Assembly: GCA_947624815.1 (NCBI GenBank)
Contig: CANQME010000003.1
Location: forward strand, 1 to 62,733
Length of the DNA: 62,733 nt
Direction of reading: 5' to 3'
Source of the DNA: an uncultured Lachnospiraceae bacterium
Lineage (GTDB): Bacteria; Bacillota; Clostridia; Lachnospirales; Lachnospiraceae
Shown piece after piece: positions 2,708-62,733 of the stretch. The position numbers were made by a program, and so were the translations under genes. How positions within the stretch are numbered: position 1 is the first letter of the stretch; each line of letters starts with the position of its first letter. Below the pieces are notes generated by a model that did no database searches, was not told where the DNA came from, and was given only the letters and a program-made list of their open reading frames with translations.

Positions 2708-5299
2708 GACCGGCCACGACGTCGTTACCTTGAACACATCGTCGTCCAGTTCAACGGTCAGCTGGCCGCCCTGAAGCTCCGTGAAGCTCTTGGCGATGGC
2801 CAGACCCAGGCCGCTGCCTTCTGTGCCGCGGGATTCGTCGCCGCGGACAAAGCGGTCGGTCAGTTCGGCCGGATCCACATGGATCTCGGCGGCGGAGATG
2901 TTTTTGAGGGTCACGGTGACGCGGCCGTCCCGGGCGCTTCCGGTCAGATAGACCCTGGAGCCGGGCAGGGCGTATTTGGCGATATTGCTCATCAGGTTTT
3001 CATAGATCCGGCAGGTCTTCTCGCTGTCAAGGGTGAGAACGGCCTTCTCCGGCAGGTTCACGCGCACATCCAGCCGGGCGCGCTCGAACTGGTCCGCCAT
3101 TTCGAAGCGGACCTGCCGCACCAGACTCATCAGGTCCACGTCCACCAGGTTCAGACTGACGGAACGGGAGGTGGCCTTGCTGATTTCGAACAGATCCTCG
3201 ATCAGCGCTTTTAAGCGCATGGATTTGCGTTCCAGAGTATCCAGATATTCAGTGCGCTGTTCCGGCGTAATACTTTCCTCCTTCAGAAGTCCGATATAGG
3301 TGATAATGGCGGTCAGCGGCGTCTTAAGGTCGTGGGAGACGTTGGTGATCAGCTCGGTCTTCAGCCGCTGGCTCTTGATCTCCTCGTCCACGGCTTTGCG
3401 GAAGCCCTGGCGGATGCGGACGATCTGGGGCTTGAACGGTTCGAAGACGCCCAGATCCTCGTCTAAGGGCGCGTCCAGACGGCCCTCGGCGATCTCGTTG
3501 GTGGCGGATAAGAGCGCCCGGTACTGTTCCTGCAGGCGGCTTAAGTAGCGGCGCAGCAGCAGGTACAGGACCACGGTGTAGATGATCGTGAAAATGACCG
3601 CGCTGGGGCCCCACAGAAGCGCCAGGATAAAGACCAGTACCGCGTTGACCAGAAGGATACGGCGGAGGATGCGGTCGGCGTTCTTTGTGATATCCATATG
3701 GGTCAGCGTATACCGGACGGCCGCGGACTTCTCGCGGATATAGGGGAAGAAACGGTAAATGAGGCTTTTCTTCTGCAGATACCCGCGGATGCCAAGGACG
3801 CGGACCGGACGCAGGCTGGCGCCCACATACCACGCGGTGAAATTGATCGCGCAGAGAAGAACGAAGGTCAGAAGCATGAGCCATGATGTCCGGGCGCCGT
3901 CGATCAGGCCCCAGAACTGCCGGCTGAGCGTTTCGACCTCCGAACCACCGGCTGCGCAGGCGATCATGGTGATCACGCGGGCGCAGGCCGGGAAAATGAG
4001 GAAGACCAGGAGAGCCGAAAGCTCCAGCGGAGCATGCGTGAGGAACGGGGGCTGCCCGGCGGCTGCCGCAGGTTCTGAAGACGCATGCCTGGCAGTTGCG
4101 GCAGGTCCCGAAGAAGCAGGTGCGGATTTGCCCGCATTAGGCCGGTTGGCGTTGTCAGCAGCTGCGCCGTCCGAAGCTTCGGACCTGGCGGCGGAAGAAG
4201 GTTCCTGCCCGGCATCCTCTGTGGCCACATTCATCGGAATATAAGGCAGGAGAAACGCCGTTGTCATCACGGCGAGCAGCAGAACCAGAAGAAAGGTGTC
4301 CATTCCCGCTTTGTGGTAGCTTTGGGAAGCCGTACCGTAGATTGCATTAAAGGGTGCGTATTCCGTTTTCAGATCGCCGTACAGAAGCTTCTTCCAGGTG
4401 TCCTCGCTGATGCCGTAGAGGATGCGGCAGCCGGAGATCGGGCGGCGGCCTGTATACTGCAGGAAGCTATTTACCGACGGGGTATCCTCCTGCTTCAGCG
4501 CACTGTCGCTGGCCAGGGCGGACTGCTCCGAGATACCGGTCGCCAGGCGGCGAATCCGGGCCGCGTCCTCCCCGGCGATCTGGCCGATGGATGCGCTGCC
4601 GTCCGCATTATAGCAGAATTCCAGGAGGAAATGATAGCCGCTGCCGTCCTGAAGCGCCGGGATATCGGCGGTATTGGTCAGGACTTCGCCGGTTTCGGTA
4701 TCGCAGATATAGTAGTCGCAGGCGGCGCTCATCGCGCGCAGTTCCGCTTCCGCGGACAAAAAATAACTGTTCAGATAATCGGCTGCTTCCTGATAGTCGG
4801 AGTAAAGCGTCTCTAGACGCTGGCGGTATTCCTGATAATCATCGGAAGGCGGCTCGGGAGATTCTGCCACGTAGGAGTTGCCTGTACCCCCGGCATCCGT
4901 ATTTTCTTCGTCGGTATCCAAAATCTTTTCGCCGGCATCCGTATTTTCTTCGCCGGTATCCAAATTCTCTTCGCTTGCATCCGGTTCACCCAAAGAATCC
5001 GGCACTCCCTCGACGATCCATTTGGCCTTTTCCATAAGGGAGCCTTCCCTGACAGGATAGTACAGCTCCACATAGTCCGCGCCGGCCTGGTTCTGGCGGT
5101 TATAGAGACTGCGGTACAGGATCTGGTTGTATTTGTACAGATCCTGGATGTAGTCCGTGCTTTCAAGCGGGTTATTGGCCAGGGATCCCGCCAGCGTGCT
5201 GAAATGCGGGATCCGTTTCATAAAGAGGGCGGCCACGGCGATGCTTAGAATGATCCCGCATATAAGGAAGCGGGTGCGGATGTTTCTGGGTGTGTTCAT
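2693..5299 (-). CDS. Sensor histidine kinase (VanS-like), membrane-bound
   Basis: 868 residues from the ATG at 5299, chosen because AAGGAG lies 9 bases upstream; an upstream ATG at 5329 overlaps the regulator stop but lacks such a site. TM1 is at ~11-28, an outside sensor region at ~30-335, TM2 at ~336-358, and three more membrane segments at ~425-447, ~473-494 and ~548-584. Then come a HAMP-like stretch, the H-box NVSHDLKTPL with phospho-acceptor H656, the N-box YENLMSNIAKYA (~766-777) and the G-box GSGLGLAIAKS (~828-838). Two low-complexity inserts stand out: four 7-residue repeats at 110-137 (outside the cell) and an Ala/Ser/Pro-rich stretch at 360-420. It is the partner of the regulator just upstream. 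The signal is unknown. Confidence 0.93.
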   Translation of the reverse strand: MNTPRNIRTRFLICGIILSIAVAALFMKRIPHFSTLAGSLANNPLESTDYIQDLYKYNQILYRSLYNRQNQAGADYVELYYPVREGSLMEKAKWIVEGVPDSLGEPDASEENLDTGEENTDAGEKILDTDEENTDAGGTGNSYVAESPEPPSDDYQEYRQRLETLYSDYQEAADYLNSYFLSAEAELRAMSAACDYYICDTETGEVLTNTADIPALQDGSGYHFLLEFCYNADGSASIGQIAGEDAARIRRLATGISEQSALASDSALKQEDTPSVNSFLQYTGRRPISGCRILYGISEDTWKKLLYGDLKTEYAPFNAIYGTASQSYHKAGMDTFLLVLLLAVMTTAFLLPYIPMNVATEDAGQEPSSAARSEASDGAAADNANRPNAGKSAPASSGPAATARHASSEPAAAAGQPPFLTHAPLELSALLVFLIFPACARVITMIACAAGGSEVETLSRQFWGLIDGARTSWLMLLTFVLLCAINFTAWYVGASLRPVRVLGIRGYLQKKSLIYRFFPYIREKSAAVRYTLTHMDITKNADRILRRILLVNAVLVFILALLWGPSAVIFTIIYTVVLYLLLRRYLSRLQEQYRALLSATNEIAEGRLDAPLDEDLGVFEPFKPQIVRIRQGFRKAVDEEIKSQRLKTELITNVSHDLKTPLTAIITYIGLLKEESITPEQRTEYLDTLERKSMRLKALIEDLFEISKATSRSVSLNLVDVDLMSLVRQVRFEMADQFERARLDVRVNLPEKAVLTLDSEKTCRIYENLMSNIAKYALPGSRVYLTGSARDGRVTVTLKNISAAEIHVDPAELTDRFVRGDESRGTEGSGLGLAIAKSFTELQGGQLTVELDDDVFKVTTSWPVSECS
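4889..4973. repeat. In-frame 21-bp tandem repeat in the kinase gene
   Basis: Four degenerate 21-bp units, best seen as two 42-bp units starting at 4890 and 4932 on the plus strand. They encode EENLDTG, EENTDAG, EKILDTD and EENTDAG in the kinase's extracellular region. The unit is a multiple of three, so copy-number change keeps the reading frame. Confidence 0.9.
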
Positions 5300-5325
5300 G
5301 GCGGATGTCTCCTTGATTCCTGATC

Positions 5326-6042
5326 TCATTGCTTCTCGATCTTATATCCGACTCCCCAAACGACCTTCAGGTATTTCGGCTTCCTGGGGTCGATCTCGAT
5401 CTTCTCCCGGATGTTGCGCACATGGACCATGATCGTGTCGGTGTTCACGGCCCGTTCGTTCCAGATCCGCTCGTAGATCTCGTCGGCGGAAAAGACGCGG
5501 CCTGGGTTGCGGATCAGCAGGTGGAGGATCTTGAATTCCAGCGGCGTCAGCTTTACCGGCTCGCCGTCCACGGTCACCTCCACCGTGTCTTCGTTCAGCT
5601 CCAGACCGCCGATGGTGTAAATGTGTTCGTTCTCCGCCGGTTCGCTGGTGGCGGAGAGATATTTTGAATACCGGCGCAGATGGGAATTGACCCGGGCCAG
5701 AAGCTCCAGCGGCGTGAAGGGCTTGGTCACATAGTCGTCGGCGCCCATATTCAGCCCCATGATCTTATCCACCTCTTCGGATTTGGCGGACAGCATGACG
5801 ACCGGGAATTCCCGGTTCATGGCCCGCAGCTTCATGAGCATGGTCACGCCGTCCATGACCGGCATCATGATATCCACGATGGCCAGATGGATCTCATTGT
5901 TCTCAATGATCTCAAGTCCCTCGCGGCCGTTGGCGGCGGTGTGGGTCTGGTAGCCCTGGTTGCGCAGATAGATCTCGATGCCTTCACGGATCTCCTTGTC
6001 GTCCTCTACGACCAGGATGTGATAGTTCTGGTTCGGTTCCAT
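5326..6042 (-). CDS. OmpR-family response regulator
   Basis: 238 residues. The receiver domain (~7-120) has the acidic pair ED at 13-14, phospho-acceptor D57 in AIVDIMMPVMDG, S85 and K107. The winged-helix DNA-binding domain (~140-236) contains LTPLEFKILHLLIRNPGRVFS and the WNERAVNTDTIMVHVRNIREKIE recognition region. Length and domain order are standard for OmpR/VanR-type regulators. The kinase gene follows 26 bases downstream and the glycosyltransferase ends 13 bases upstream, so all belong to one minus-strand operon. Targets are unknown; the co-transcribed membrane genes suggest an envelope response. Confidence 0.95.
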   Translation of the reverse strand: MEPNQNYHILVVEDDKEIREGIEIYLRNQGYQTHTAANGREGLEIIENNEIHLAIVDIMMPVMDGVTMLMKLRAMNREFPVVMLSAKSEEVDKIMGLNMGADDYVTKPFTPLELLARVNSHLRRYSKYLSATSEPAENEHIYTIGGLELNEDTVEVTVDGEPVKLTPLEFKILHLLIRNPGRVFSADEIYERIWNERAVNTDTIMVHVRNIREKIEIDPRKPKYLKVVWGVGYKIEKQ

Positions 6043-6055
6043 GGAAATGTCCTCG

Positions 6056-7543
6056 TTATGATAAAATGATTCGCTCTGCGGTCTGCCATAAGGGGGCCGA
6101 GTATGCGGCGATGGTTTTATTATAGATTCGAATCGCCTTTTTCACAACCGATTCTTCCCGGAAATCGACCGCCGCCGCCAGCGCCCGGCGCCGCAGACGC
6201 TCCTGCAGCGCCCGGTCTTCGCAATACAGGTTCATTTTTTGGGCGAATGCGTTCTCGTCTTCGGCGCACAGCAGGCCGTTCTGGCCGTCGCGCACCAGAT
6301 CCCTTACGCCGCTGGCATCCACCGCGATGACGGGCGAGCCGCCTGCGAAGGCTTCCAGGAGCACGATGCCCTGGGTTTCCGTGGTGGAGGCGAAGAGGAA
6401 CGCATCGGCCGCCGCATAATATGGAGCCAGCTCCCCATGGGGAATACTGCCCGTGAAGATCACTTCCTGCTCCAGATGCAGCTTGCGGCAGAGCGCTTCG
6501 CATTCCTTCCGGTCCGGTCCGTCGCCGGCGACCGCCAGGCGGAAGGGCCGGCGGTACCGGTCGCGGAAAAGGGCCGCGCTGCGCAGAAGAAAGGAAATGT
6601 TCTTCTCGTGGGACAGGCGGGAGACGGTAAGAAAGAGCGGAGCCTGGGGCGTCTCCCCCAGAAGCCGCGCCCGCGTCTCCGCTGCAGCCGCCGGATCCGC
6701 GTCAAAGCAGCTGTCTTCGATGCCGGTGGGTAGCACGGCGACCCGGGCCGGATCGAACCGGCAGACACCGGTGAGATATTCCTTCATCCCTGCCGTGGGC
6801 GCGAAGACCTGGTGGCAGTTCTGCAGGAAGAGACGGAGGTAGAGAGGAACCATTTCCTCCTGCGTGAAACGAAGAAACTGTCGCGCCAGGTCTGCGCGCA
6901 GACTGCCTGCGGCCGTCGCTTCGCCGGTCTCCAGGGATGCTGTCGTGTTGGTTGCCAGGGATGTTGCTGTACTGGCCGCCAGGGATGTTGCTGTGTTGGC
7001 CGCCAGGGATGCTGTCGTGTTGACCATCAGAGATGTTGCCGTGCCGGTTGCCAGAGGTGCAGCCGCGTTGGCCGCCTGCGGTATCGCGTGGGAAGCAGCT
7101 CCGCAGGCGTTCTGGCTTACGCGGTCCAGGCAGCGGAACACGCCGGCGTTCAGCAGATACTGGTCGTAACGGGTGTGGTAGGTGAAGACCAGCGGAACCC
7201 TGTAGCGGCGGGACAGACGAACCGCCGTGCGGCCGATCAGCATCGGATGATGAACATGGATGATATCGTAACGGCAGCGGCGGAATTCCTCTTCGATGCG
7301 CGGATCGAACGGGTTCGGGCACGCGGCTCCGCCAAGGAAACAGTAGGGCAGAGACGCGTAGCGAAGAACCGGGACGCCGTCGCATACGGTGAGGCCGGAA
7401 TCGGCCGGGACAGTCGCGGCGGCCGGGGCGAACACGGTTACTTCGTGTCCGGCGGCGATCAGTCCTTTGGCCAGCAGCTCGATGGAGATGGGAACGCCTC
7501 CGACGAAGGGCTTGTAGTTGTTGGTCATCATTGCGATCTTCAT
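6056..7543 (-). CDS. Glycosyltransferase, GT4 family (glycolipid type)
   Basis: 495 residues, longer than the usual ~390-410 because of an insert. It has the Rossmann-like N-terminal domain (GGVPISIELLAKGLIAAGHEVTVFAP; HVHHPMLIGRTA ~96-107) and the C-terminal sugar-nucleotide domain with the EX7E motif in ETQGIVLLE followed by AFAGGSPVIA. GT4 enzymes of this shape often transfer glucose or mannose to diacylglycerol or phosphatidylinositol on the inner membrane face; the acceptor here is an inference. Between the two domains, residues ~165-212 are six Thr/Ser/Ala-rich 8-residue repeats. The gene follows dedA by 6 bases and precedes a two-component system, suggesting membrane lipid homeostasis. 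Confidence 0.88.
   Translation of the reverse strand: MKIAMMTNNYKPFVGGVPISIELLAKGLIAAGHEVTVFAPAAATVPADSGLTVCDGVPVLRYASLPYCFLGGAACPNPFDPRIEEEFRRCRYDIIHVHHPMLIGRTAVRLSRRYRVPLVFTYHTRYDQYLLNAGVFRCLDRVSQNACGAASHAIPQAANAAAPLATGTATSLMVNTTASLAANTATSLAASTATSLATNTTASLETGEATAAGSLRADLARQFLRFTQEEMVPLYLRLFLQNCHQVFAPTAGMKEYLTGVCRFDPARVAVLPTGIEDSCFDADPAAAAETRARLLGETPQAPLFLTVSRLSHEKNISFLLRSAALFRDRYRRPFRLAVAGDGPDRKECEALCRKLHLEQEVIFTGSIPHGELAPYYAAADAFLFASTTETQGIVLLEAFAGGSPVIAVDASGVRDLVRDGQNGLLCAEDENAFAQKMNLYCEDRALQERLRRRALAAAVDFREESVVKKAIRIYNKTIAAYSAPLWQTAERIILS
6931..7074. repeat. In-frame 24-bp tandem repeat in the glycosyltransferase gene
   Basis: Six degenerate 24-bp units start at 6931, 6955, 6979, 7003, 7027 and 7051. 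On the minus strand they encode 8-residue units like NTATSLAA. The array lies between the acceptor-side and donor-side domains, away from catalytic motifs. Confidence 0.92.
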
Positions 7544-7549
7544 TTCCTG

Positions 7550-8065
7550 TTACAGCCTCCCCAGCAGTGCGAATACCTGCTCGCCGCAGGCGTAGCCGGC
7601 GCCGACGAACACCAGGTTCCAGATGAGAATGCCAAGCGCGGAGCTGACCGTGTACTTGACCAGATCCATTCGCAGGATCCCGGCGGGGATGGAGACGAGG
7701 GTGCGCAGGGCGGGCAGCAGCTTGGCCACGAAGACGCCGGCGCAGCCCCGCTGCCGGACCCAGTCAAGCTTCCGTTCCAGGGATTCCCGTTTCTCCGGGT
7801 GCCGGTCCATGTACCGTTCCAGAACGCGGCTTCCGCCGGTTCGGCCCAGCGCGTAGAGGATCAGACTTCCGAGCAGCCCGGCGGCCACGGTGACGGCCAG
7901 GACATGCACGAAACCGATCTTGCCCCTGGCGGCCATGACGCCGGACAGCGGCATGATAACGCCGGCCGGGAACCCGGGCAGGTTCATGTATTCCAGAAGC
8001 ACGATCACGAAGATCGCCGCCTCGCCGTATCGGAGAAAATAAGCGGTGAAGGTTGAGATGTCCAT
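7550..8065 (-). CDS. DedA family membrane protein
   Basis: 171 residues with several hydrophobic segments. It carries the SNARE-associated / DedA pattern: EYMNLPGFPAGVIMPLSG (~25-42), a G-x-LGS-LILYALGR stretch (~63-75) and F-AKLLPALRTLVSIPAGILRM (~112-132). DedA proteins act in lipid transport across the cytoplasmic membrane and membrane potential maintenance. The length is a little short of the common ~200. It is the first gene of the operon that continues with the glycosyltransferase and two-component genes; the 6-base gap to the glycosyltransferase implies coupling. Confidence 0.92.
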   Translation of the reverse strand: MDISTFTAYFLRYGEAAIFVIVLLEYMNLPGFPAGVIMPLSGVMAARGKIGFVHVLAVTVAAGLLGSLILYALGRTGGSRVLERYMDRHPEKRESLERKLDWVRQRGCAGVFVAKLLPALRTLVSIPAGILRMDLVKYTVSSALGILIWNLVFVGAGYACGEQVFALLGRL

Positions 8066-8180
8066 AAAAACGCCCCCTGTGATGGTTGTTTGCTTTGCTA
8101 TGCTCCATCATAGGGGGTGAAACGAAAGTTGTTCGTCAGAGAAAACGAAAGATTTTCTAAAGAATCTGCTATTTTATCCT

Positions 8181-8963
8181 TTAGAGCCGGATCAGCTCCG
8201 CGCCCAGAAGCGCGACGTCCTCCTCCTGGTGTGTGGAAATGAGAACCATCCGTCCGGCGGTCTTCTCCAGAATATAGGAGATGACCGTCTGCCGCGTGTC
8301 TTCGTCTAGTCCGGTGAAGGGCTCGTCCATGAGCAGCACGTCATAGGGCGCCAGCAGCGCCCGGCAGATGGCGGTGCGGCGTTTCATGCCGCCGCTTAAG
8401 GTCGAGACGGGACGCGTGAGGGATTCTTCCGGCAGCAGCCGGGCCAGCTCCGAACGCACCTGCGCCTGGCTCAGAAGCTTCCCTGTGACCATCATGACGT
8501 TCTCGATGGGCGTAAACGCCTCGCAGAGCCGGTCCTCCTGGAAGACGGCAGAGAAACGCGGGAGGCTGCCTGCCCGCCCGCGGACGGCGCTGCCCGAAAC
8601 GTTTCGAGAAAGACGGGGGCTGTTCGCAGCGTTCTGTGGCTGGTGCCCGCTGTTCGCAGCGTTCTGCGGCTGTCGTTCACTGTCTGCAGCGTTCTGTGGC
8701 TGGCGCTCACTGGCCGAAGCGTGCTGTGGCAGGCGTTCATTGTCCGCAGCCCCGGACTGTCCGGAGCCGGCCGGATTCTCCCACAGGATGCTTCCTGCGT
8801 CTGCCTCTTCCAGCCCCATCAGCAGCCGCAGCAGCGTCGTCTTGCCGGAGCCGGACGGCCCCATCAGGCAGTAGACGCGGCCGCTTTCCATTTGCAGGTC
8901 GAATCCGTTTAATACGGAAAGCTCTGCGTAGGATTTACACAGATTGCGGACGGTCAGCTTCAT
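8181..8963 (-). CDS. ABC transporter ATP-binding protein, NitT/TauT type
   Basis: 260 residues from the ATG at 8963, which has AAAGGGGG nine bases upstream; a GTG three codons earlier is the alternative. Walker A GPSGSGKT is at 35-42, the Q-loop Q142 in FQEDRL, the signature LSGGM at 189-193, Walker B LLMDEP at 210-215 and the switch His at ~245. Between Walker A and the Q-loop there is an insert of ~50 residues (~75-125) made of 10-residue Gln/Asn/Ser-rich repeats. It is the energy subunit for the permease and binding protein genes upstream; its start overlaps the permease stop by about 29 bases. Confidence 0.92.
   Translation of the reverse strand: MKLTVRNLCKSYAELSVLNGFDLQMESGRVYCLMGPSGSGKTTLLRLLMGLEEADAGSILWENPAGSGQSGAADNERLPQHASASERQPQNAADSERQPQNAANSGHQPQNAANSPRLSRNVSGSAVRGRAGSLPRFSAVFQEDRLCEAFTPIENVMMVTGKLLSQAQVRSELARLLPEESLTRPVSTLSGGMKRRTAICRALLAPYDVLLMDEPFTGLDEDTRQTVISYILEKTAGRMVLISTHQEEDVALLGAELIRL
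8590..8755. repeat. In-frame 30-bp tandem repeat in the ABC ATPase gene
   Basis: Clear 30-bp units start at 8620, 8650, 8680 and 8710, with more degenerate units at 8590 and 8740. On the minus strand they encode 10-residue units like ERQPQNAADS. The insert falls in the beta subdomain between Walker A and the Q-loop, where ATPases tolerate loops. Confidence 0.92.
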
Positions 8964-9726
8964 GGGCCGCACCCCCTTTCCTCTGGAGGGCCGACAGAAG
9001 GGCCAGGAAAAGCCGCTCGAAGAGAGCGCTGATCACGATGACTACGAAGGTCCAGGCGAACAGATTCGCCGTATCCAGATAGATCTTCGACATGTAAAGA
9101 TTCTCGCCGATGGAGGCGGTCGGGATACCGATGACCTCCGCGGCGACGCCGGACTTCCAGCTCATGCCGAGGGCCACTCTGCAGCCGCTCAGAAGATACG
9201 GCAGCAGGGAGGGCAGGTAAATGTACCGAAACTGCTTAAGCGCCGGCATACGGAAGATCCGCGCCATCTCAAGCAGCTTCGGATCGGTGCTTTCCAGGCC
9301 CGCCAGCGTATTGACGTAGATCATGGGGAGCACCACGAGAAACGCGATGATCACCGCCAGATTCCGGGATCCGACCCAGATCAGCGCCAGGATCACGAAG
9401 GACGCCACCGGGATGGATTTCAGCAGTGAAAAAAGCGGCGCCAGAAGCTCCCGCAGGAACGGAAACCGGCAGGCCGCGCCGCCCAGCGCCAGTCCGCAGG
9501 CGAAGGCCAGCAAAAAGCCCAGGCTGATCCTGCCAAAGGAGTGGGCGACGGACAGCCAGAATTCCCCGGTAGGGATCAGGCGCAGAAGCGCCAGCCCGGC
9601 GTCCGCCGGGCCGACCAGAATGATGTTGTTGTGGATCAGCCATGCGGCCAGCTGCCAGATGAAGATCCAGAAAAGGATGATCAAAAGGCGCCGGCCGGCA
9701 GGTGAAATCGATGGATTCTGTTTCAT
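8935..9726 (-). CDS. ABC transporter permease, NitT/TauT (SsuC/TauC) type
   Basis: 263 residues with about six membrane segments. The cytoplasmic coupling region reads LLEMARIFRMPALKQFRYIYLPSLLPYLLSG (~157-187), and GMSWKSGVAAEVIG follows (~194-207), a pattern typical of the SsuC/TauC/ThiX group. It forms the channel of the importer encoded with its neighbours. Its start codon overlaps the stop codon of the binding protein by one base (TAATG), showing translational coupling. The substrate class of this family includes sulfonates, nitrate, riboflavin and pyrimidine thiamin precursors; which one applies is unclear. Confidence 0.92.
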   Translation of the reverse strand: MKQNPSISPAGRRLLIILFWIFIWQLAAWLIHNNIILVGPADAGLALLRLIPTGEFWLSVAHSFGRISLGFLLAFACGLALGGAACRFPFLRELLAPLFSLLKSIPVASFVILALIWVGSRNLAVIIAFLVVLPMIYVNTLAGLESTDPKLLEMARIFRMPALKQFRYIYLPSLLPYLLSGCRVALGMSWKSGVAAEVIGIPTASIGENLYMSKIYLDTANLFAWTFVVIVISALFERLFLALLSALQRKGGAAHEADRPQSV

Positions 9727-10889
9727 TACCGCTTATAATAGAATGCGTCGTCCGGCAGCTGCCCGCCAACGGAGGTGGGATCCTGGCTGAACAGGACATT
9801 CAGATAACCGGACAGCATTTCCTTCATCTCGTCGCCTTCGATGCAGACGATGCTGCAGTAAGGCAGGGCCTTCTGTGCTACCGGAGCTTTCTCGATGATT
9901 CCGAACTTGGCTACCAGCTCCGCGGCGGCCGCGACATCCTCGCCGGTAAAGGCCGCCGACTGCGCGTGCTCGTCCATGAACAGCTGAATCGCCGCAGCGG
10001 TCGTCTCATCCGCAAGCAGCTCGCTTCTGGCTACGGTCACGCCGGTCACCAGACTGCCGCCGTCTTCGGAAGCCGCATTGACCTTGTCCCATTCGGCGGT
10101 CAGGTCAAGGACGATCTTCAGGCTCTCGTTCTGCGCCATCGCCACGGTTACGAAGGGCTGGGGCAGAAGGCCGATGGCGTCCGCCTGCTCCTTTAAGACT
10201 GCCGCCACCTCGGTGGGCTCCGACTTGTATTCGATGGTCAGATCGTCGGCGGACATTCCGTTGGCGGACAGCAGGTACTGGAATACATAGTCCGGCGTGG
10301 TGCCCTTGCCGGTCATGTAAACGGTCTTGCCGGCCAGATCGGAGATGCCGGTGATCGAATCGTCGGCCGCCACCACATAGAGAACGCCAAGGGTGTTGAT
10401 GTTCAGGACGTTAACGCCCTGGTTCGTCTTCTGGTACAGGATCGACGCCATGTTGGCGGGTACCAGCGCGACGTCCAGATCGCCGGAGACCATCTTCGCC
10501 ACCAGCTCGGAGGCGTCGGCGACCATTGTAAATTCGTAGCTTCCTTCGGCTTCACCCTTCTCTTCCTGATCCATCAGGGAGACCAGACCCATGGAGGTCG
10601 GGCCCTTTAAGGAGCCGATCCGCAGCGTAACGCCGCTTCCGTCTGCGCCCGGCGCTTCCAGCGCGACATCCGACGAATCGGCGGCAGTGGTGGGAGCGTC
10701 TTCTGTGGGAGCCTCGATATTGGCCTCGGTTTCGGTCTCTGCGGCGGTCGTCTCCTCTGCGACGGTCGTCTCAGCAGCGGTCGTTGCCGCTGTCGTTGTG
10801 GTTTCTGTGTTGCCGGAGCTTCCCGAGCAGCCCGCCAGAAGGGCTGCGGTCATGGCGGCTGCCATGAAGACAGACATGGATTTTTTCAT
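9726..10889 (-). CDS. ABC transporter substrate-binding lipoprotein (NMT1/ThiY-like)
   Basis: 387 residues. A lipoprotein signal peptide ends at LLAGC with C21 as the lipidated residue. A Thr/Glu-rich linker (~28-75) tethers the binding domain to the membrane. The binding domain (~88-387) has the NMT1/SsuA-type features: RIGSLKGPTSMGLV, GDLDVALVPANMASILYQ, and ISDLAGKTVYMTGKGTTPDYVFQYLL. It captures the substrate for the permease and ATPase encoded downstream. No TPP riboswitch is seen in the leader, so a thiamin precursor role is not supported by regulation. Confidence 0.9.
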   Translation of the reverse strand: MKKSMSVFMAAAMTAALLAGCSGSSGNTETTTTAATTAAETTVAEETTAAETETEANIEAPTEDAPTTAADSSDVALEAPGADGSGVTLRIGSLKGPTSMGLVSLMDQEEKGEAEGSYEFTMVADASELVAKMVSGDLDVALVPANMASILYQKTNQGVNVLNINTLGVLYVVAADDSITGISDLAGKTVYMTGKGTTPDYVFQYLLSANGMSADDLTIEYKSEPTEVAAVLKEQADAIGLLPQPFVTVAMAQNESLKIVLDLTAEWDKVNAASEDGGSLVTGVTVARSELLADETTAAAIQLFMDEHAQSAAFTGEDVAAAAELVAKFGIIEKAPVAQKALPYCSIVCIEGDEMKEMLSGYLNVLFSQDPTSVGGQLPDDAFYYKR

Positions 10890-11075
10890 AATAATAGTTC
10901 CTCGCTTTCTTTTCTTCTCTGTCAGGGAATCCCTTTCAGGTGAGTGTGCGTGGCTGCGGCCTGCAGATGCGTGATCCCCGCGCCGTCCTGCCGTGCCGCA
11001 TCGCCGGGAACCCGTTGAATAGGCTTATGCAGAACGCGCGAAACTACCGTCAGGTGGTCCGCGGCCAACGAGCCT
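10890..11075 (-). other. Long GC-rich leader of the ABC importer operon
   Basis: About 180 bases lie between the predicted -10 box and the binding-protein start. The region is GC-rich with many short complementary segments. I could not match it to a riboswitch class I know (TPP, purine, guanidine, SAM, THF and ZTP were considered). The last 25 bases before the start are purine-rich and hold the ribosome binding site. No open frame of note is present. Confidence 0.4.
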
Positions 11076-11104
11076 AGTATAGCACAAAGAAGATGGTTCG
11101 TCCA
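11076..11104 (-). promoter_or_regulatory. Putative promoter of the ABC importer operon
   Basis: On the minus strand a good -10 box TATACT (11081-11076) is preceded at 17 bp by a poor -35 box TGGACG. It is divergent from the folC promoter about 70 bases away. Confidence 0.4.
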
Positions 11105-11149
11105 GAGGGAACTTGTGCGGGAATTGTCGCATTCTGCGAAAAAAACCAG

Positions 11150-11178
11150 TTGGCATTGTCCGGATATTATATTATAAT
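11150..11178 (+). promoter_or_regulatory. Promoter of the folC operon
   Basis: TTGGCA (11150-11155), a 17-bp spacer and a perfect TATAAT (11173-11178). Transcription would begin near 11185, about 70 bases before folC. Confidence 0.75.
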
Positions 11179-11254
11179 CTTCCTATGGACACCCGATAAC
11201 GTGTGCGGCCGGAACGGCGGTGGGGGCGGCGGCGCATCCTGAGAGGATTTTGGC

Positions 11255-14613: not shown

Positions 14614-15207
14614 ATGGGTCGGACAGAGACAAACATGGACAGACCGGAGGCGCTGCCGGGGAAGGAGCCTGCGTCGAGACTGCCGGGACAGGAGCCGGCG
14701 TCGAGACTGCCGGGACAGGAGCCGGCGCCAGGACTGCCGGGGAAGGAGACAGGCTCCGGACGTTCGGAGCAGGGGACGGCGAATCGGCTGACCGAGACCA
14801 TGCGGCTGCAGATTGAGAGCCGTTCCCGCAACGAGGAGTTCGCCCGGGTCGTGGTGGCGGCTTTCGCCAGCCGCCTGGATCCCACGCTGATGGAAATCGA
14901 CGATCTGAAGACGGCGGTCTCCGAAGCGGTGACCAACGCGGTGATCCACGGATACGGCGGCGGTGAGGGGATCATTTACATAGAGGCGTCCGTTTGCGGC
15001 AGGGAGCTGACCGTGACCGTGCGGGATACCGGCGTGGGGATACCGGATATCCCGAAGGCCATGGAACCCATGTTCACCACGGACCGTACCGGCGAACGCT
15101 CCGGTATGGGCTTCGCGTTCATGGAAGCCTTTATGGATCAGGTGGAGGTGCGTTCGGAGGTTGGACGCGGAACAGCCGTCACCATGAAAAAGCAGATGGG
15201 CGGGTGA
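14614..15207 (+). CDS. spoIIAB: Anti-sigma F factor / serine kinase SpoIIAB, with N-terminal repeat extension
   Basis: 197 residues from the ATG at 14614, chosen for the AGGAGG eight bases upstream; an earlier ATG at 14560 would overlap spoIIAA. The conserved GHKL kinase core begins near residue 63 (MRLQIESRSRNEEFARVVVAAF) and has the N-box VSEAVTNAVIHGYGGG, the G1 box VRDTGVGIPD and the G2 box ERSGMGFAFME. Typical SpoIIAB is about 145 residues. The extra ~60 residues at the N-terminus hold four 9-residue repeats (LPGQEPASR type, ~14-49). It phosphorylates SpoIIAA and sequesters sigma F. No ribosome binding site precedes the core methionine, so the extension is probably made. Confidence 0.93.
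   Translation: MGRTETNMDRPEALPGKEPASRLPGQEPASRLPGQEPAPGLPGKETGSGRSEQGTANRLTETMRLQIESRSRNEEFARVVVAAFASRLDPTLMEIDDLKTAVSEAVTNAVIHGYGGGEGIIYIEASVCGRELTVTVRDTGVGIPDIPKAMEPMFTTDRTGERSGMGFAFMEAFMDQVEVRSEVGRGTAVTMKKQMGG
14653..14760. repeat. In-frame 27-bp tandem repeat in spoIIAB
   Basis: Four 27-bp units start at 14653, 14680, 14707 and 14734. Units two and three are nearly identical to each other. They encode nine residues each (LPGKEPASR, LPGQEPASR, LPGQEPAPG, LPGKETGSG). Confidence 0.95.
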
Positions 15208-15211
15208 GCGC

Positions 15212-51422: not shown

Positions 51423-51451
51423 TGCTATAAAAAAACAAGGAGGATTCAAGT

Positions 51452-53240: not shown

Positions 53241-53250
53241 AATATATAAT

Positions 53251-53264
53251 TGATTAAATAATCA
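53251..53264. promoter_or_regulatory. Candidate operator at the GH43 promoter
   Basis: TGATTAAATAATCA, a perfect 14-bp palindrome just after the predicted start point. A repressor bound here would block transcription; the ArsR-type protein encoded 2.5 kb downstream is the obvious candidate. Confidence 0.45.
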
Positions 53265-53325
53265 TTTCGTGCTATATTGGTGGGTGTTTACGTCCGAAAG
53301 GCGATAGGAACAGGAGGAATAAAGT

Positions 53326-54279: not shown

Positions 54280-54348
54280 GACAGGACGGACGGAAATGAC
54301 AGTATGGGGATCCTGCAAAATGATAGTTTAGATAATAGTATAATTATA

Positions 54349-54377
54349 TTGTAGATCGTAAAATCTTGTGCTATAAT
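54349..54377 (+). promoter_or_regulatory. Possible internal promoter before the third GH43 gene
   Basis: TTGTAG (54349-54354), 17 bp, perfect TATAAT (54372-54377). Start point near 54384, 44 bases before the gene. Confidence 0.55.
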
Positions 54378-54427
54378 TTTAGATGAATGTAAAGATAACA
54401 TGGGAGACGGAAAGGAAGGAGAACCGG

Positions 54428-55762: not shown

Positions 55763-55796
55763 CGGAAAGGGTGCGGATAAAGGGGGGTGTGCAGCG

Positions 55797-56753
55797 ATGC
55801 TTCATATCAAAAATTTGGATGAGGGACTCCCGGTGTTCAAGGCGCTCGCGTCGGAGATCAGGATCCGTATCGTGAAGCTGCTTTTGGACAACGGAGAGAT
55901 GAATATGAATGAGCTGGCCGGCGAGCTGGGTGTGACGAACGGCGCTCTGACAAGTCATGTACGGATGCTGGAGGAGAGCGGCCTGATCAGCGTTCTGACG
56001 GAGCGGGGCAGTCATGGCAATCAGAAGCTGTGCCGTGTGCGGCAGGAGAAAATTCTGGTGGACGTGGTTTCCGAGCTGAAGGAGGATCTGGGAAACGTCT
56101 ACTATACAGAGATTCCGGTGGGACATTATGTGAGTTATGATATTTATCCCACCTGCGGAATCGCTACGGGCAACTACCTGATCGGCGAGGTGGATGATCC
56201 GCGGTATTTTGCCCATGCGGATCGGATGTACGCAGAAATACTGTGGTTTGGCAAGGGATATGTGGAATACCTTGTACCTACGCTTCTGCCTCCGTCTACC
56301 CGGATCGATCAGATTTCCCTGTCCATGGAGATCAGCTCCGAGGCGCCCGGTGTTAATAATGACTGGCCTTCCGATATCAGCTTCTATCTGAACGACGTTT
56401 ATATCGGTATGTGGACCAGTCCCGGTGACTTCGGCGATGTGCAGGGCATATTCACACCGGACTGGTGGTTCCCCAACTGGAATCAGTATGGGCAGCTGAA
56501 GCTGATCGTCATTGACAGTACCGGGACGTATCTGGACGGACTGAAGATTTCGGATGTGACGATCGACCGGTTTCATTTAAACTATAAGAGCACGGTGAAA
56601 TTCCGGTTCGAGGTAGCGGCGGACGCGGCCAATGTGGGCGGGTTCACCATCTTCGGCAAGAGGTTCGGCAATTACAACCAGGCCATTAAGGTGCGGATCA
56701 ATTACAGTCCTTTATCGGAAGGATCCGGAGGAACGGCGGCCGGCCGCGCGTAA
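55797..56753 (+). CDS. ArsR-type regulator with a large C-terminal sensor-like domain
   Basis: 318 residues from the ATG at 55797, with AAAGGGGGG upstream. The winged helix (~1-85) has [51 protein letters not shown]. Residues ~105-315 are beta-rich with many aromatics ([37 protein letters not shown]) and resemble a jelly-roll carbohydrate-binding fold; this fold call is inference. Classic ArsR proteins are about 100 residues. It lies among arabinose genes and probably controls them with a sugar ligand. Confidence 0.82.
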
Positions 56754-56790
56754 GAGAGCAGTGTGTTTATTCAAAAAGGAGGAGATTGAA

Positions 56791-58380
56791 ATGGCGAGCA
56801 TCAAAGAGGCAATTGAGAGCAGCGTTCTGGGTCTGGAGCTGGGCTCCACCCGCATCAAGGCGGTTCTGATCGACGAGTCCCATACGCCGATCGCATCCGG
56901 CGACCACGAGTGGGAGAACCGGCTGGAGAACGGCGTCTGGACCTACAGTCTGGACGATATCTGGACGGGGCTTCGCGACTGTTACAGCAAGCTGGCGGCG
57001 GACGTGAAGGCCAAATACGGCGTGAAGCTGACGAAGGTGGGGGCCATCGGCTTTTCCGCCATGATGCACGGCTATATGGCGTTCGACCGGGAGGGGAATC
57101 TGCTGGCGCCGTTCCGCACCTGGCGCAACGGGATCACCGGACCGGCGGCGGAGGCGCTGACGGAGCTGTTTCATTATAATATTCCCCAGAGATGGAGCAT
57201 TGCCCATCTGTACCAGTCCATCTTAAACGGGGAGGAGCACGTGAAGGACGTGGCGTTCTTCACCACGCTGGCGGGCTACATCCACTGGCAGCTGACCGGC
57301 GAGAAGGTGCTGGGCGTGGGCGACGCTTCGGGAATGTTCCCCATCGATCCGGAGACGAAGGATTACGATGAGAAGATGATCGCCAGGTTCGACGATCTGG
57401 TCGCGGACAAGGGGTATCCGTGGAAGCTCCGCGACATTCTGCCGAAGGCCCTGATGGCCGGAGAGCCGGCCGGCGTGCTGACGGCGGCGGGGGCCAGGCT
57501 TCTGGATGAGAGCGGAACCCTGGAGGCAGGCGTTCCCATCTGCCCACCGGAGGGCGACGCGGGCACCGGCATGGCGGCGACCAACAGCGTGGCGAAGCGG
57601 ACCGGCAATGTATCCGCCGGAACCTCCGTATTCGCGATGGTGGTGCTGGAGAAGGAGCTTTCGAAGGTGTATCCGGAGATCGATCTGGTGACCACGCCGG
57701 ACGGAAGTCTGGTGGGCATGGTCCACGCCAACAACTGTACGTCGGATCTGAACGCCTGGGTCGGGCTGTTTAAGGAATTCGCGGACAGCGTCGGCGTGAA
57801 GCTGGATATGAATACGCTGTTCGGAACGCTGTACAACAAGGCTCTGGAAGGCGATCCGGACTGCGGCGGGCTATTGTCCTACGGGTATCTTTCCGGAGAG
57901 AATATTACCGGCGTCAGCGAGGGACGTCCGCTGTTCGTGCGCTCGCCGGAGAGCAATTTCAATCTGGCCAATTTCATGCGGGCGAATCTGTTCACGGCGC
58001 TGGGCGCGCTGAAGGTGGGCATGGATATCCTGCTGAAGGAGGAGCATGTGAAGATCGATTCGATCCTTGGACACGGCGGACTGTTCAAGACGAAGGGCGT
58101 GGGCCAGGGCTTTCTGGCGGCGGCCATCAATACGCCGGTGTCGGTGATGGAGACGGCCGGCGAGGGCGGACCGTGGGGAATGGCGCTGCTGGCGTCGTAT
58201 ATGATCCATAAGGACGCGGATGAGAGTCTGGGACATTTCCTGGCAGAGAAGGTGTTCGCGGGGAACAAGGGAGAGGAGATGCAGCCGGATCCGCGGGCGG
58301 CGGAAGGCTTTGAGAAGTTTATCGAGCGGTATAAGAAGGGGATCGGGATCGAGAAGGCCGCGCTTCAGTATCTGATCTGA
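56791..58380 (+). CDS. FGGY-family sugar kinase, probable L-ribulokinase
   Basis: 529 residues from the ATG at 56791, with AAAGGAGGAG upstream. FGGY motifs: [16 protein letters not shown] near the N-terminus (phosphate loop 1), [32 protein letters not shown] and [20 protein letters not shown] near the C-terminus. The araD gene follows in 17 bases, so L-ribulose is the likely substrate, although xylulokinases look similar. It would make L-ribulose 5-phosphate. Confidence 0.88.
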
Positions 58381-58397
58381 GAAGGAGATGATTTGTC

Positions 58398-59096
58398 ATG
58401 CTGGAACAGCTGAAAAGAGAGGTTTACGAGGCGAATATGCTTTTGCCGAAGTACGGGCTGGTGACGTTTACATGGGGAAATGTAAGCGGGATCGACCGGG
58501 AAAGCGGGCTTTTCGTGATCAAGCCCAGCGGGGTGGATTATGATAAGCTGACGCCCCAGGACATGGTGGTCGTGGATCTGGAAGGGAAGAAGGTGGAAGG
58601 GAAGCTGAATCCTTCTTCGGATACGGCGACGCATGTGGTGCTGTATAACCGGTTCCCGAAGATCGGGGGCGTGGTGCACACGCATTCGCCGTGGGCGACC
58701 AGCTGGGCCCAGGCGGGCCGCGGGATTCCGTGCTATGGGACGACGCATGCGGATTACCTGTACGGCGAGGTTCCCTGCGTGCGGAATCTGACGAAGGAAG
58801 AGATCGAGGAGGCGTACGAGCTGAACACGGGCATCCTGATCGCGGATCATTTCGAAGGAAACGGTCTGGACTATGAGGCGACGCCGGCGGTGCTGTGCAA
58901 GAATCACGGGCCGTTTACATGGGGCAGGGACGCCCACGAGGCGGTGCATAACGCGGTGGTACTGGAAGAGGTGGCGAAGATGGCGGCCCGCTGCGAGTGG
59001 CTGAACCCGGAGGTCAAGCCGGCGCCCCAGGAGCTGCAGGACAAGCACTATTACCGGAAGCACGGGGCCAACGCCTATTACGGGCAGGGGAAATAA
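58398..59096 (+). CDS. araD: L-ribulose-5-phosphate 4-epimerase
   Basis: 232 residues, a class II aldolase fold. Motifs: [27 protein letters not shown] (contiguous, ~25-52), zinc ligands in [12 protein letters not shown] (~94-105) and a third His in [13 protein letters not shown] (~178-190). It converts L-ribulose 5-phosphate to D-xylulose 5-phosphate. AGAAGGAG precedes the start. Confidence 0.95.
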
Positions 59097-59120
59097 GCTT
59101 CGGGAATTGCGCCGGAACGG

Positions 59121-59149
59121 ATGACAAAATCTGTAAATTGGTATATAAT
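59121..59149 (+). promoter_or_regulatory. Promoter of tkt and transaldolase genes
   Basis: ATGACA (59121-59126), a 17-bp spacer and perfect TATAAT (59144-59149). It lets the pentose phosphate genes be read apart from araD. Confidence 0.7.
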
Positions 59150-59198
59150 CATGGCTGAGAAGCTGTAAATCATGTTTTGAGAAGAGGAGATACTGACT

Positions 59199-61181
59199 AT
59201 GAAAACGGTACAGGAACAGGCTGTAAATGCGATCCGTGTTCTGTCGGCGGACGCGATCCAGAAGGCAAAATCCGGGCATCCCGGCCTGCCGCTTGGTTCG
59301 GCGGCGGCGGCCTATGAGCTGTGGGCCAACCATATGAACCATAACCCGGCGGATCCGGACTGGCCCAACAGAGACCGGTTCGTACTGTCCGGCGGACATG
59401 GCTCCATGCTTTTGTATTCGCTTCTGCATCTGTACGGATACGGGAATCTGTCGAAGGAAGATCTGATGAATTTCCGTCAGTTCGGTTCTCTGACGCCGGG
59501 ACATCCGGAGTACAGGCACACGGTGGGCGTGGAGGCGACCACGGGCCCGCTGGGACAGGGCATGGCGATGGCGGTCGGCATGGCGATGGCGGAGAAACAT
59601 CTGGCGGCGGTATTTAATAAGGACGAATATCCGGTAGTGGATCATTATACCTTCGTGCTGGGCGGCGACGGCTGCATGATGGAGGGAATCTCCTCCGAGG
59701 CGTTCTCCCTGGCGGGGACGCTTAAGCTGGGCAAGCTGATCGTGCTTTACGACTCCAACAGCATTTCCATCGAGGGAAGCACGGATATCGCCTTCACAGA
59801 GAACGTGCAGGAGAGGATGGCGGCCTTCGGCTTCCAGACCATCACCGTAGAGGACGGCAACGACCTGGCGGCCATCGGCGCTGCCATCGAGATGGCGAAG
59901 GCGGAGCTTAACAAGCCTTCCTTCATTACCGTGAAGACCCAGATCGGCTACGGCTGCCCGGCCAAGCAGGGCAAGGCCAGCGCTCACGGCGAGCCTCTGG
60001 GCGACGACAATATCCGCGAGATGAAGCAGTTCCTGGAATGGCCGTCTCTGGAGCCGTTCTATGTGCCGGACGAGGTCTACGCCCACTATCAGGCGCTGGC
60101 AGACAGCAAGGTGGACGCGGAGAACGCGTGGAACGCGATGTTCGCCGCCTACTGCCAGGAATATCCGGAGATGGAGAAGCTCTGGAACCAGTATCATGAC
60201 GAGAAGGCCGCCGAGATCTTCTGGGACGACGAGGAATTCTGGAAACAGTCCGAGAAGCCGGAGGCGACCCGGAACCTGTCCGGCAAGGTCATTAACTATA
60301 TGAAGGATAAGCTGCCGAACCTGTTCGGCGGTTCCGCCGATCTGGCGCCGTCCAACAAGACGAATATGTCGGGCGCCGGCGATTTCTCAGCCGCGACTCC
60401 CGAGGGACGCAACCTGCACTTCGGCGTGCGTGAGCAGGCCATGGCTGCCATCGGCAACGGACTTACGCTTCACGGCGGCTTAAAGCCCTATGTGGCCACA
60501 TTCTTCGTATTCAGCGATTACACGAAGCCCATGGCGAGGCTTTCCGCGATCATGGGTCTGCCGCTGACCTTCGTATTCAGCCATGACAGCATCGGCGTCG
60601 GCGAGGACGGCCCGACCCATGAGCCGGTCGAGCAGCTGGCCATGTTGCGGGCGCTGCCCAACTTCCATGTATTCCGTCCGTGCGACGCGGTGGAGACGGC
60701 GGCTGCCTGGTACAGCGCCATGACCTCCACGAAGACGCCGACGGCCCTGGTGCTGACCCGCCAGAATCTGGCGCCGATGCCCGGCAGCAGCAAGGAAGCG
60801 CTGAAGGGCGGCTATGTCACCGACGACTGCGAGGGCACGCCGGACGTGATCCTGATCGCCAGCGGCTCCGAGGTGGAGCTGGCTGTGAAGGCGAAGGCGG
60901 TCCTGAAGGAAGAAGGCATGAAGGTCCGTGTGGTGTCCATGCCGTGTATGGATCTGTTCGAGGAGCAGAGCGACGAATACAAGGAGTCCGTGCTTCCGAA
61001 GAGCGTCCGCAAGCGCGTAGCCATCGAGGCTCTGAGCGATTTCGGGTGGGGCAGATATGTGGGACTGGACGGCGCTTATGTGACCATGCACGGATTCGGC
61101 GCCAGCGCCCCGTACGCCAGACTGTTTGAGCATTTCGGATTTACCGTGGATAATGTCGTCGCGGCAGTGAAGTCCCTGTAG
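59199..61181 (+). CDS. tkt: Transketolase
   Basis: 660 residues, full length. The thiamin diphosphate motif GDGCMMEGISSEAFSLAGTLKLGKLIVLYDSN (contiguous, ~154-185) is intact. KSGHPGLPLGSA lies at ~24-35, and the C-terminal transketolase signature SHDSIGVGEDGPTHEPVEQL is at ~460-479. Other catalytic residues lie in REQAMAAIGNG (~412-422). It interconverts pentose and other sugar phosphates, taking the xylulose 5-phosphate made by AraD. Confidence 0.97.
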   Translation: MKTVQEQAVNAIRVLSADAIQKAKSGHPGLPLGSAAAAYELWANHMNHNPADPDWPNRDRFVLSGGHGSMLLYSLLHLYGYGNLSKEDLMNFRQFGSLTPGHPEYRHTVGVEATTGPLGQGMAMAVGMAMAEKHLAAVFNKDEYPVVDHYTFVLGGDGCMMEGISSEAFSLAGTLKLGKLIVLYDSNSISIEGSTDIAFTENVQERMAAFGFQTITVEDGNDLAAIGAAIEMAKAELNKPSFITVKTQIGYGCPAKQGKASAHGEPLGDDNIREMKQFLEWPSLEPFYVPDEVYAHYQALADSKVDAENAWNAMFAAYCQEYPEMEKLWNQYHDEKAAEIFWDDEEFWKQSEKPEATRNLSGKVINYMKDKLPNLFGGSADLAPSNKTNMSGAGDFSAATPEGRNLHFGVREQAMAAIGNGLTLHGGLKPYVATFFVFSDYTKPMARLSAIMGLPLTFVFSHDSIGVGEDGPTHEPVEQLAMLRALPNFHVFRPCDAVETAAAWYSAMTSTKTPTALVLTRQNLAPMPGSSKEALKGGYVTDDCEGTPDVILIASGSEVELAVKAKAVLKEEGMKVRVVSMPCMDLFEEQSDEYKESVLPKSVRKRVAIEALSDFGWGRYVGLDGAYVTMHGFGASAPYARLFEHFGFTVDNVVAAVKSL

Positions 61182-61213
61182 TTGTATGAATATATGGAAG
61201 GAGTGTATCGGAT

Positions 61214-61867
61214 ATGAAATTCTTTATTGACACAGCCAATGTAGACGAGATCCGCGAGGCCAATGAAATGGGCATTATCTGCGGAGTTACCACCAATCCG
61301 TCCCTGATCGCCAAGGAAGGCCGGGACTTTAACCAGGTGATCAGGGAGATCGCCTCCATCGTGGACGGCCCGATCAGCGGCGAGGTGAAGGCTACGACCA
61401 CCGATGCGGCCGGTATGATCCGGGAAGGCCGTGAGATCGCGGCGATCCATCCGAACATGGTGGTGAAGATCCCGATGACTGCCGAGGGCTTAAAGGCCGT
61501 CAAGGTTCTGTCTGCCGAGGGGATCAAGACCAATGTGACGCTGATCTTTACCACGGCGCAGGCTCTTCTGGCCGCCCGTGCGGGAGCGACCTTTGTGTCT
61601 CCGTTCGTGGGACGGCTGGATGACATTTCCATGCCGGGCGTGGAGCTGATCGAGGACATCGCGGACGTATTTATGACCCACGATATCAAGACCGAGATCA
61701 TCGCCGCCAGCATCCGCCATGCGATCCATGTGATCGACTGTGCGAGAGCCGGAGCGGATATCGCCACGGTGCCCTATAAGGTGCTGATGCAGATGACCAA
61801 GCATCCGCTGACGGATCAGGGCATCGAGAAGTTCAGGAAGGACTATATCGCGGTATTCGGCGAATAA
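61214..61867 (+). CDS. Transaldolase, small type (TalC/F6P aldolase-like)
   Basis: 217 residues. It has the small class pattern: [31 protein letters not shown], Schiff-base Lys in [12 protein letters not shown] (~84-95) and [10 protein letters not shown] (~132-141). It partners transketolase in the non-oxidative pentose phosphate pathway. It starts 32 bases after tkt with AAGGAG upstream. Whether it is a true transaldolase or fructose-6-phosphate aldolase cannot be told by eye. Confidence 0.92.
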
Positions 61868-61906
61868 GGGAAAGCCTGCAGGGACAGGCGGATGGAGAAG
61901 CGGATC

Positions 61907-62733
61907 ATGAAGGACACGAGACAGGAATGGCTTGCGGCGCTTCTTAAGATCACAGGACCGGTGCTTGACGCGCTCGAAGGCGGTGAGCTGAAGCAGAAGC
62001 TTCCGCTTGCGTTTCACGCGGGACGGGCCCAGTACGCGCCGCTCGAGGCGTTCGGCCGCAGCATGCTGGGACTGACGCCGTGGCTTGCACTGGATCCGGA
62101 GACAATTTCACAGGAGGAGAGAACGCTGCAGAGCGTCATGCGCCGGAAAACGGTCCGCTGTCTGGAGATGGCCGCCGATCCGGCTTCTCCTGATTTTATG
62201 AACTTTACGGAGGGCGGACAGCCGCTGGTCGACGCCGCCTTCCTGGCTCACGCCCTGGTGCGCGCACGGGGGATGCTGACGGGCAGCGCGCCGCCGGCAT
62301 GCGGGCAGGATCTGCCCTGCCCGGGGACGGGGGCTGCGGCCGGCGCATGCGGTACGGATCTGTCCCGCCCGGGGAGGCGTTCTGCGGCTGACGCATGTAA
62401 AGCTCCGGCTTCGGGGTCCGGAAGCGCGGCGGGCGGCACGGGCGGAATCCTGCCGGAAGAGACACGCGTCCATCTGGCGGACGCGCTGCGCGCGACCCGC
62501 AGGATCGCCGCGGTCAATACCAACTGGCTCTTTTTCTCCGCTATGGTGGAGGCCGGGCTTTATGTTCTGGGAGAGCCGTGGGACATCATGCGCGTTCTCG
62601 GCGCGCTTCGGACCTTCCAGGGCTGGTATGCCGGCGACGGCGTCTACGGCGACGGCCCCATGTTCCACTGGGATTACTACAACAGCTTCGTGATCCAGCC
62701 GATGTATGTGGATCTTGTGGATCTGTTCGCGGA
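61907..62733 (+). CDS. DUF2264 domain protein, 3' end beyond the window
   Basis: 275 codons are present from the ATG at 61907, with GGAGAAG upstream (an in-frame ATG at 61892 is possible). DUF2264 motifs: QPLVDAAFLAHALVRA (~105-120), NTNWLFFSAMVEAGL (~205-219) and WYAGDGVYGDGPMFHWDYYNSFVIQPM (~241-267, contiguous). The family is likely an alpha/alpha barrel acting on uronic or sugar substrates; its activity is not established. Residues ~130-178 form a Gly/Ala/Pro/Cys-rich 16-residue repeat insert. It follows the transaldolase by 40 bases. Confidence 0.85.
   Translation, partial: MKDTRQEWLAALLKITGPVLDALEGGELKQKLPLAFHAGRAQYAPLEAFGRSMLGLTPWLALDPETISQEERTLQSVMRRKTVRCLEMAADPASPDFMNFTEGGQPLVDAAFLAHALVRARGMLTGSAPPACGQDLPCPGTGAAAGACGTDLSRPGRRSAADACKAPASGSGSAAGGTGGILPEETRVHLADALRATRRIAAVNTNWLFFSAMVEAGLYVLGEPWDIMRVLGALRTFQGWYAGDGVYGDGPMFHWDYYNSFVIQPMYVDLVDLFA
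62297..62425. repeat. In-frame 48-bp tandem repeat in the DUF2264 gene
   Basis: Units start at 62297, 62345 and 62393 with GCATG, a 48-bp (16-residue) period; the third is partial. The units share the ACG-D-L/CPG-type reading. The insert separates conserved DUF2264 motifs. Confidence 0.85.

Follow-up and report, generated by a model that had tools for sequence, protein, structure and literature searches.

The genome of an uncultured Lachnospiraceae bacterium carries many degenerate tandem-repeat arrays, or minisatellites, and those inside its genes have repeat units whose length is a multiple of three. We describe these arrays from a window of 62,733 nucleotides, which is the whole stretch of DNA that was analyzed (contig CANQME010000003.1, or C3; the assembly comprises 207 contigs totaling 3,544,375 bases and has a completeness of 87.8%), and from a wider sample of the same genome. 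Among the 75 arrays in this sample, all 50 that lie inside genes have a period divisible by three, as opposed to 7 of 18 intergenic arrays and 1 of 7 that run across gene ends (Fisher, p = 4 × 10−11), such that outside genes or across their ends 8 of 25 periods are divisible by three, as chance predicts. We consider it probable that the arrays are born by a local duplication that is blind to period, and that they are then filtered by the reading frame and by the tolerance of flexible segments. A preliminary description of the window, made from its letters alone, had reported in-frame minisatellites of different unit lengths in five genes, and had anticipated a genome rich in such arrays with an excess of units divisible by three inside genes; all of this was borne out.

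The Period Rule Inside and Outside Genes

Arrays were called with Tandem Repeats Finder (TRF) at a score of at least 80, with overlapping rows merged, in 858,972 bp consisting of 40 stretches of the organism's own genome and the window (22% of the genome sampled plus the window). Genes were called with a simple hexamer gene caller, which gave a coding fraction of 0.88. The relatives show the same distribution of periods. In seven sister species (420,000 bp), 20 of 21 genic, 1 of 7 gene-end and 8 of 14 intergenic arrays have periods divisible by three; in five intermediate species this holds for 8 of 9 genic arrays and not for the single intergenic one, and in eleven distant congeners for 7 of 7 genic and neither of two intergenic arrays. 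For the own genome and the sisters together, the rule is followed by 70 of 71 genic and 17 of 46 other arrays, the latter being indistinguishable from one third (p = 0.64). Array densities in these relatives come from 14–60 kb per genome, and the stretches added to them were selected because they hold relatives of window genes and thus do not form a random sample. In the own sample, arrays are nearly fourfold denser in non-coding than in coding DNA (24.8 and 6.6 per 100 kb). A chance origin of the arrays is rejected, as none of three replicates of an order-4 Markov model trained on the own sample yielded an array, and shuffling codons within called genes yielded 0, 0 and 1 genic arrays, compared with the 50 observed.

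Several points count against taking these figures at face value. The gene caller favors open frames, and the 50/50 result is partly a consequence of calling because a gene whose frame is broken by an array would be split by the caller. Two of the 37 genic arrays of the relatives have periods of 35 and 16, in gene calls that are unchecked. Some arrays sit in proteins of the surface type, for which repeats are no surprise. On the other side, many of the array genes encode conserved enzymes, and units of other lengths could regain the frame after three steps, yet none such is present in the own sample.

Array Density in the Clade

The density of arrays per 100 kb is 8.7 in the own genome, 10.0 in the sisters, 4.5 in the intermediate species and 1.7 in the distant congeners. 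Outside the genus, 70 loci (1,211,639 bp) contain 42 arrays, or 3.5 per 100 kb. The count of order-level bases includes L141, whose 2,513 bases are all N. A clade-specific excess is likely but unproven. The preliminary description had proposed an active process of this lineage, which holds insofar as the own genome is rich in arrays, but other genera have arrays as well and sister species differ widely.

The alternative that survives best is that the arrays are simply what a GC-rich genome of the Lachnospiraceae ordinarily carries in tandem repeats and that the clade is nothing special, a reading to which we would give real weight, though somewhat less than an even chance. The arrays outside the genus are in its favor, as is the same period rule in Legionella and in archaeal Borgs (PMC2639597, PMC9879509). 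Against it, the density in the own genome is 2.5 times that of other genera (p = 1 × 10−6) and 5.3 times that of the distant congeners (p = 1.5 × 10−8), with arrays treated as independent, and non-coding density is 24.8–27.9 versus 2.6 per 100 kb.

The excess is itself weakened by a number of comparisons. At the level of genomes, clade against distant congeners gives p = 0.029 (Mann–Whitney, 8 versus 11 genomes), leaving the excess uncertain. Eight outside-genus loci with at least 53% GC hold 6 arrays in 143,982 bp, five of them in L172, and the own genome does not differ significantly from this GC-matched set (p = 0.08, or 0.10 without the window). In stretches that were partly chosen, the sister species are uneven: G013 has no array in 75,286 bp, G019 and G001 have 3.6–3.7 per 100 kb, and G009 and G004 have 20.6–24.2. 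A sample of 60 kb per species is small, as shown by the change on adding synteny stretches, with G015 going from 3.3 to 11.6 arrays per 100 kb and G001 from 1.7 to 3.6. It is possible, although we regard it as doubtful, that this is one gut Lachnospiraceae clade in which minisatellites are born at a raised rate, as a mutator-like trait that would have been gained or lost between sister species. As a separate observation, L172 (CALWLT010000023.1), from an uncultured Lachnospiraceae outside the genus, is as rich as the window's clade, with 5 arrays in 20 kb.

Host Proteins, Selection and Age

According to Pfam, with 29 of the 33 array genes that lie outside the window scanned (8 of the 29 are without a family), the array-bearing proteins include IspD, beta-galactosidase, methionyl-tRNA synthetase, a UvrD/PD-(D/E)XK helicase-nuclease, CitG and radical-SAM proteins, as well as SpoIIIAA, SpoIIIAE and SpoIID. 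The sporulation proteins with arrays in the own genome are four, when the SpoIIAB-type protein of the window is included with SpoIIIAE, SpoIIIAA and SpoIID (L085:14069-15508, L085:16869-18386, L101:2473-3654 and window:14614-15207). The UvrD-type helicase with a PD-(D/E)XK nuclease domain (L091:10592-14773, own genome) has a 33-bp in-frame array; we take it to be AddA-like, and it is itself a break-repair type of enzyme.

The differences between neighboring units are concentrated at third codon positions. With arrays containing indels dropped, and for the main figure also periods above 150, 34 of the 50 genic arrays remain, and in these the differences at codon positions 1, 2 and 3 number 101, 120 and 243 over about 1,060 sites each, placing about half (243 of 464) at the third position. 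Base composition predicts nearly equal numbers, and the observed/expected ratios are 0.68, 0.76 and 1.54. The same bias is found in a set of conserved enzymes (18 genes with 16 usable arrays, the window's included, hand-picked after the Pfam results had been seen), where positions 1, 2 and 3 differ at 0.113, 0.113 and 0.194 (p = 0.0005), and in the window's five indel-free arrays, with 19, 11 and 27 differences (p = 0.02). The array peptides are therefore under purifying selection that is relaxed, being weaker than that on orthologous proteins, in which positions 1 and 2 differ at 0–0.12 and position 3 at 0.08–0.36. The earlier idea that selection keeps in-frame units in tolerant loops holds for the frame, but the peptides are not merely tolerated.

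Between units, the median match is 84.5% in genic and 86.5% in intergenic arrays. At third positions, units diverge from each other by 0.23, much as sister species do, and a typical array is therefore probably about as old as the sister species.

Across 2211 array residues the composition is of the disorder type: G, E, S, N, A, P and T are enriched 1.6–1.95-fold, and L, I, W, M, F and Y are at 0.25–0.07-fold. The coding frame is among the more hydrophilic of the six (ranks 1–3) in 28 of 47 arrays, compared with 164 of 628 random gene pieces. On the basis of residue composition, the array peptides may be disordered. The description of the repeats as GC-rich is only roughly true, as arrays exceed their own flanks by a mean of 3.8 GC points in genes and 3.6 elsewhere, and the 21-bp unit of the histidine kinase described below has 50% GC.

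The Arrays of the Window and Their Orthologues

TRF recovers all five arrays first described in the window, with slightly shifted ends; all are in called genes and in frame, and Pfam agrees with the family names (histidine kinase, family-4 glycosyltransferase, ABC ATPase, SpoIIAB-type kinase and DUF2264). It had been held that such inserts are not part of these families, and these repeat arrays are indeed absent from the orthologues examined, in which the loops that hold them persist with variable length.

The array of the SpoIIAB-type kinase (14653–14761, forward strand; 27-bp unit) forms part of an N-terminal extension. The core of this protein is 88–96% identical in the five closest of eight aligned relatives. 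The N-terminal segment varies in length among 19 other species and differs in sequence in nearly all of them; its last part is common to G015 and G004, and G022 has an unrelated repeat at the N-terminus. Outside the genus, the insert is found in none of the 67 loci that have the core motif. The distance from the first in-frame Met to the core motif is at most 65 residues in 60 of these 67 loci, and 50–120 residues in 10 loci of the genus. The probable start is the ATG at 14614 and not 14560, since a GGAGG precedes the former in each of the six species that were aligned. The scan of named genomes for this gene kept the best 80 of 527 loci, among which the closest named relatives are metagenome-assembled genomes labeled ‘uncultured Lachnospiraceae … Lapin’, presumably, to judge from the label, from rabbit gut.

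The ABC ATPase (8181–8972) contains a 30-bp-unit array at 8620–8750 on the reverse strand (8590–8755 in the preliminary description). It separates the Walker-A half from the Q-loop motif. This ATPase has a match at E 1e-40 in 20 of the 26 genomes of the genus, the own genome included. The segment around the insert is 111 residues long in the window; nine congeners have 41 residues there, and the other ten have 47–106. G019 and G013 have an SDSA-type repeat in this loop that is unrelated to that of the window. Their genes are identical at 675 of 708 aligned bases and are separated by a single in-frame gap of 60 bp, which lies within the array and amounts to a difference in protein length between two species.

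On the reverse strand, the family-4 glycosyltransferase gene (6056–7543) has an array of 24-bp units with a 72-bp higher-order unit at 6931–7076; the repeat is present in none of six orthologues examined and the loop varies in length. The DUF2264 gene, which begins at 61892 and is truncated by the end of the contig, has 48-bp units on the forward strand at 62280–62397 (62297–62425 originally), in a loop that is of variable length in five other species. The histidine kinase gene (2693–5329, reverse strand) has a 21-bp unit with a 42-bp higher-order unit at 4890–4983, N-terminal to the HisKA domain; the loop at this place is of other lengths in relatives and contains one or two unit-like pieces. 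Two further arrays were found by TRF. A second in-frame array in the kinase (4053–4118, reverse strand; 33 bp × 2.0) corresponds to a place that holds 36-bp arrays in G015 and G004. The other is intergenic (564–737, no strand assigned) and is flanked by a tRNA cluster and a transporter gene (774–2162) that is putatively of the MATE type. It matters because its units, of about 35 bp with a 68-bp higher-order unit, are not multiples of three. In G015 and G012 the same place upstream of the transporter gene is occupied by 37–38-bp arrays, which are alike at 261 of 300 bases; the window's array is unlike both.

Independent births at one site are seen in the ABC loop (window versus G019/G013), at the SpoIIAB N-terminus (window, G022 and G021) and upstream of the transporter gene (window versus G015/G012), and the arrays of the window and its genome are locus-specific. 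Could they be contingency loci, that is, hypermutable repeats that are maintained for the tuning or switching of a protein through changes in copy number? The in-frame difference between the ABC genes of two sister species and the variable kinase loop are what this would lead one to expect. We nevertheless find it very improbable: none of the 50 genic arrays of the own sample has a frame-shifting period, unit divergence comparable to that of sister species is at odds with quick homogenization, and the hosts are many ordinary enzymes and not one surface class. The phase-like tuning that had been suggested is not supported, as periods divisible by three cannot shift the frame and the units are diverged, unlike those of homogeneous contingency loci.

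A mobile or templated element that seeds minisatellites would fit the sites that hold arrays in several species, but is highly implausible, as some species have unrelated units at a shared site, only 3 similar pairs exist among the 75 arrays (one of them within a single gene), in keeping with the units having been called unrelated, and a single match in the own genome was obtained for the intergenic array; a dispersed or mobile source is disfavored on these counts. Equally hard to credit is an artefact of short-read metagenome binning, despite the closest named relatives being metagenome-assembled genomes among the best loci kept, since copies differ by point changes and species whose genomes were assembled separately (G019/G013, G012/G015) have homologous arrays.

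Two further observations concern neighboring sequences. The substrate-binding protein at 9726–10889 of the window has a Thr/Ala/Glu-rich N-terminal linker, and several relatives too have tandem arrays in this protein. Upstream of the orthologue of window gene 58398–59096, G015 (L281:11300-11560) and, at the homologous place in L282, G012 have a long, imperfect hairpin of about 190 bases adjoining a 31-bp array; the folding energy of the stretch is −104.7 kcal/mol (z −7.0). The own-genome sample contains no exact match to a 16-base piece from the hairpin arms, and the hairpin is MITE-like by resemblance only.

A Proposed Mechanism

An explanation of these arrays has to accommodate the period rule, the coding/non-coding difference in density, the lineage-specificity, the in-frame length difference between sisters and the third-position bias. 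In the local duplication that we favor, a short sequence would be duplicated head to tail whatever its unit length, perhaps via replication slippage or short-repeat recombination. These are the standard candidates for local duplication. They are also taken up in the Borg paper (PMC9879509). In non-coding DNA, any unit length would persist, whereas in genes the survivors would be multiples of three in loops, linkers or terminal extensions, coding for hydrophilic, disorder-type peptides. Later rounds may copy two or three units together, giving rise to higher-order periods, after which point mutation would degrade the copies and purifying selection, weaker than on enzyme cores, would preserve the character of the peptide. 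The outcome would be lineage-specific flexible inserts in ordinary proteins, most of them presumably without a specific function.

Slippage is the mutational step that we infer, possibly at a raised rate in this clade. Loss of mismatch repair was considered as a cause and rejected: matches to the MutS1 model above the family cut-off are present in 22 of the 26 genomes of the genus, at full length in the own genome. Of the remaining four, three show partial matches located on short pieces, and in G020 there is a partial match only, which we read as MutS2-like. Ku end joining was found in none of the 26 genomes. The idea that units are prone to form hairpins finds no support, and this speaks against the proposed duplication, as the mean fold z is −0.23 both for 72 array units and for random pieces.

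Relation to Known Repeat Systems

The restriction of genic repeats to multiples of three is already in print. In Legionella pneumophila, intragenic repeats (9–261 bp) are all divisible by three, for which frame selection was proposed; no change in their copy number was observed over generations in culture, and their carriers include IcmE/DotG and TPR/Sel1-type proteins (PMC2639597). The genic arrays described here share this property, and the intergenic contrast, the clade comparison and the codon-position test go beyond that account, as far as its available text extends. The tandem repeats of archaeal Borgs are divisible by three in open reading frames, compared with 14–38% of intergenic ones, and are of local-sequence origin, almost all locus-unique, fast-evolving and rich in disorder-promoting residues, with proteins of similar function repeatedly hit (PMC9879509). 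Borg repeats and the present arrays thus have in common the period rule in genes and its absence elsewhere, local birth, locus-unique units, fast evolution, disorder-type residues and repeated hits on proteins of similar function. They differ in that Borg repeats are described there as nearly perfect, A-enriched, extrachromosomal and often in extracellular or membrane proteins, whereas the arrays here are degenerate, slightly GC-enriched relative to their flanks (with A itself uncounted per strand), chromosomal and in many cases in cytoplasmic enzymes. Phase-variable simple sequence repeats are likewise tandem repeats in coding sequence, with short units whose copy number switches a gene on or off (PMC3899988), unlike the long, diverged, in-frame units found here.

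No such arrays in Lachnospiraceae were found in the literature searched. The present arrays add a case from a bacterial chromosome that involves ordinary proteins and copies that are degenerate, and for which a third-position bias has been measured and the density is uneven among sister species. On a bacterial chromosome, in contrast to a giant extrachromosomal element, the birth, frame filtering, turnover and decay of minisatellites can be traced between sister species, in hosts that are conserved enzymes that can be assayed. Should the uneven density among sisters hold in complete genomes, the cause of minisatellite birth would become testable by comparison, and a raised birth rate, if true, would make the core enzymes and sporulation proteins of this clade a natural experiment in the birth, filtering and retention of disordered segments.

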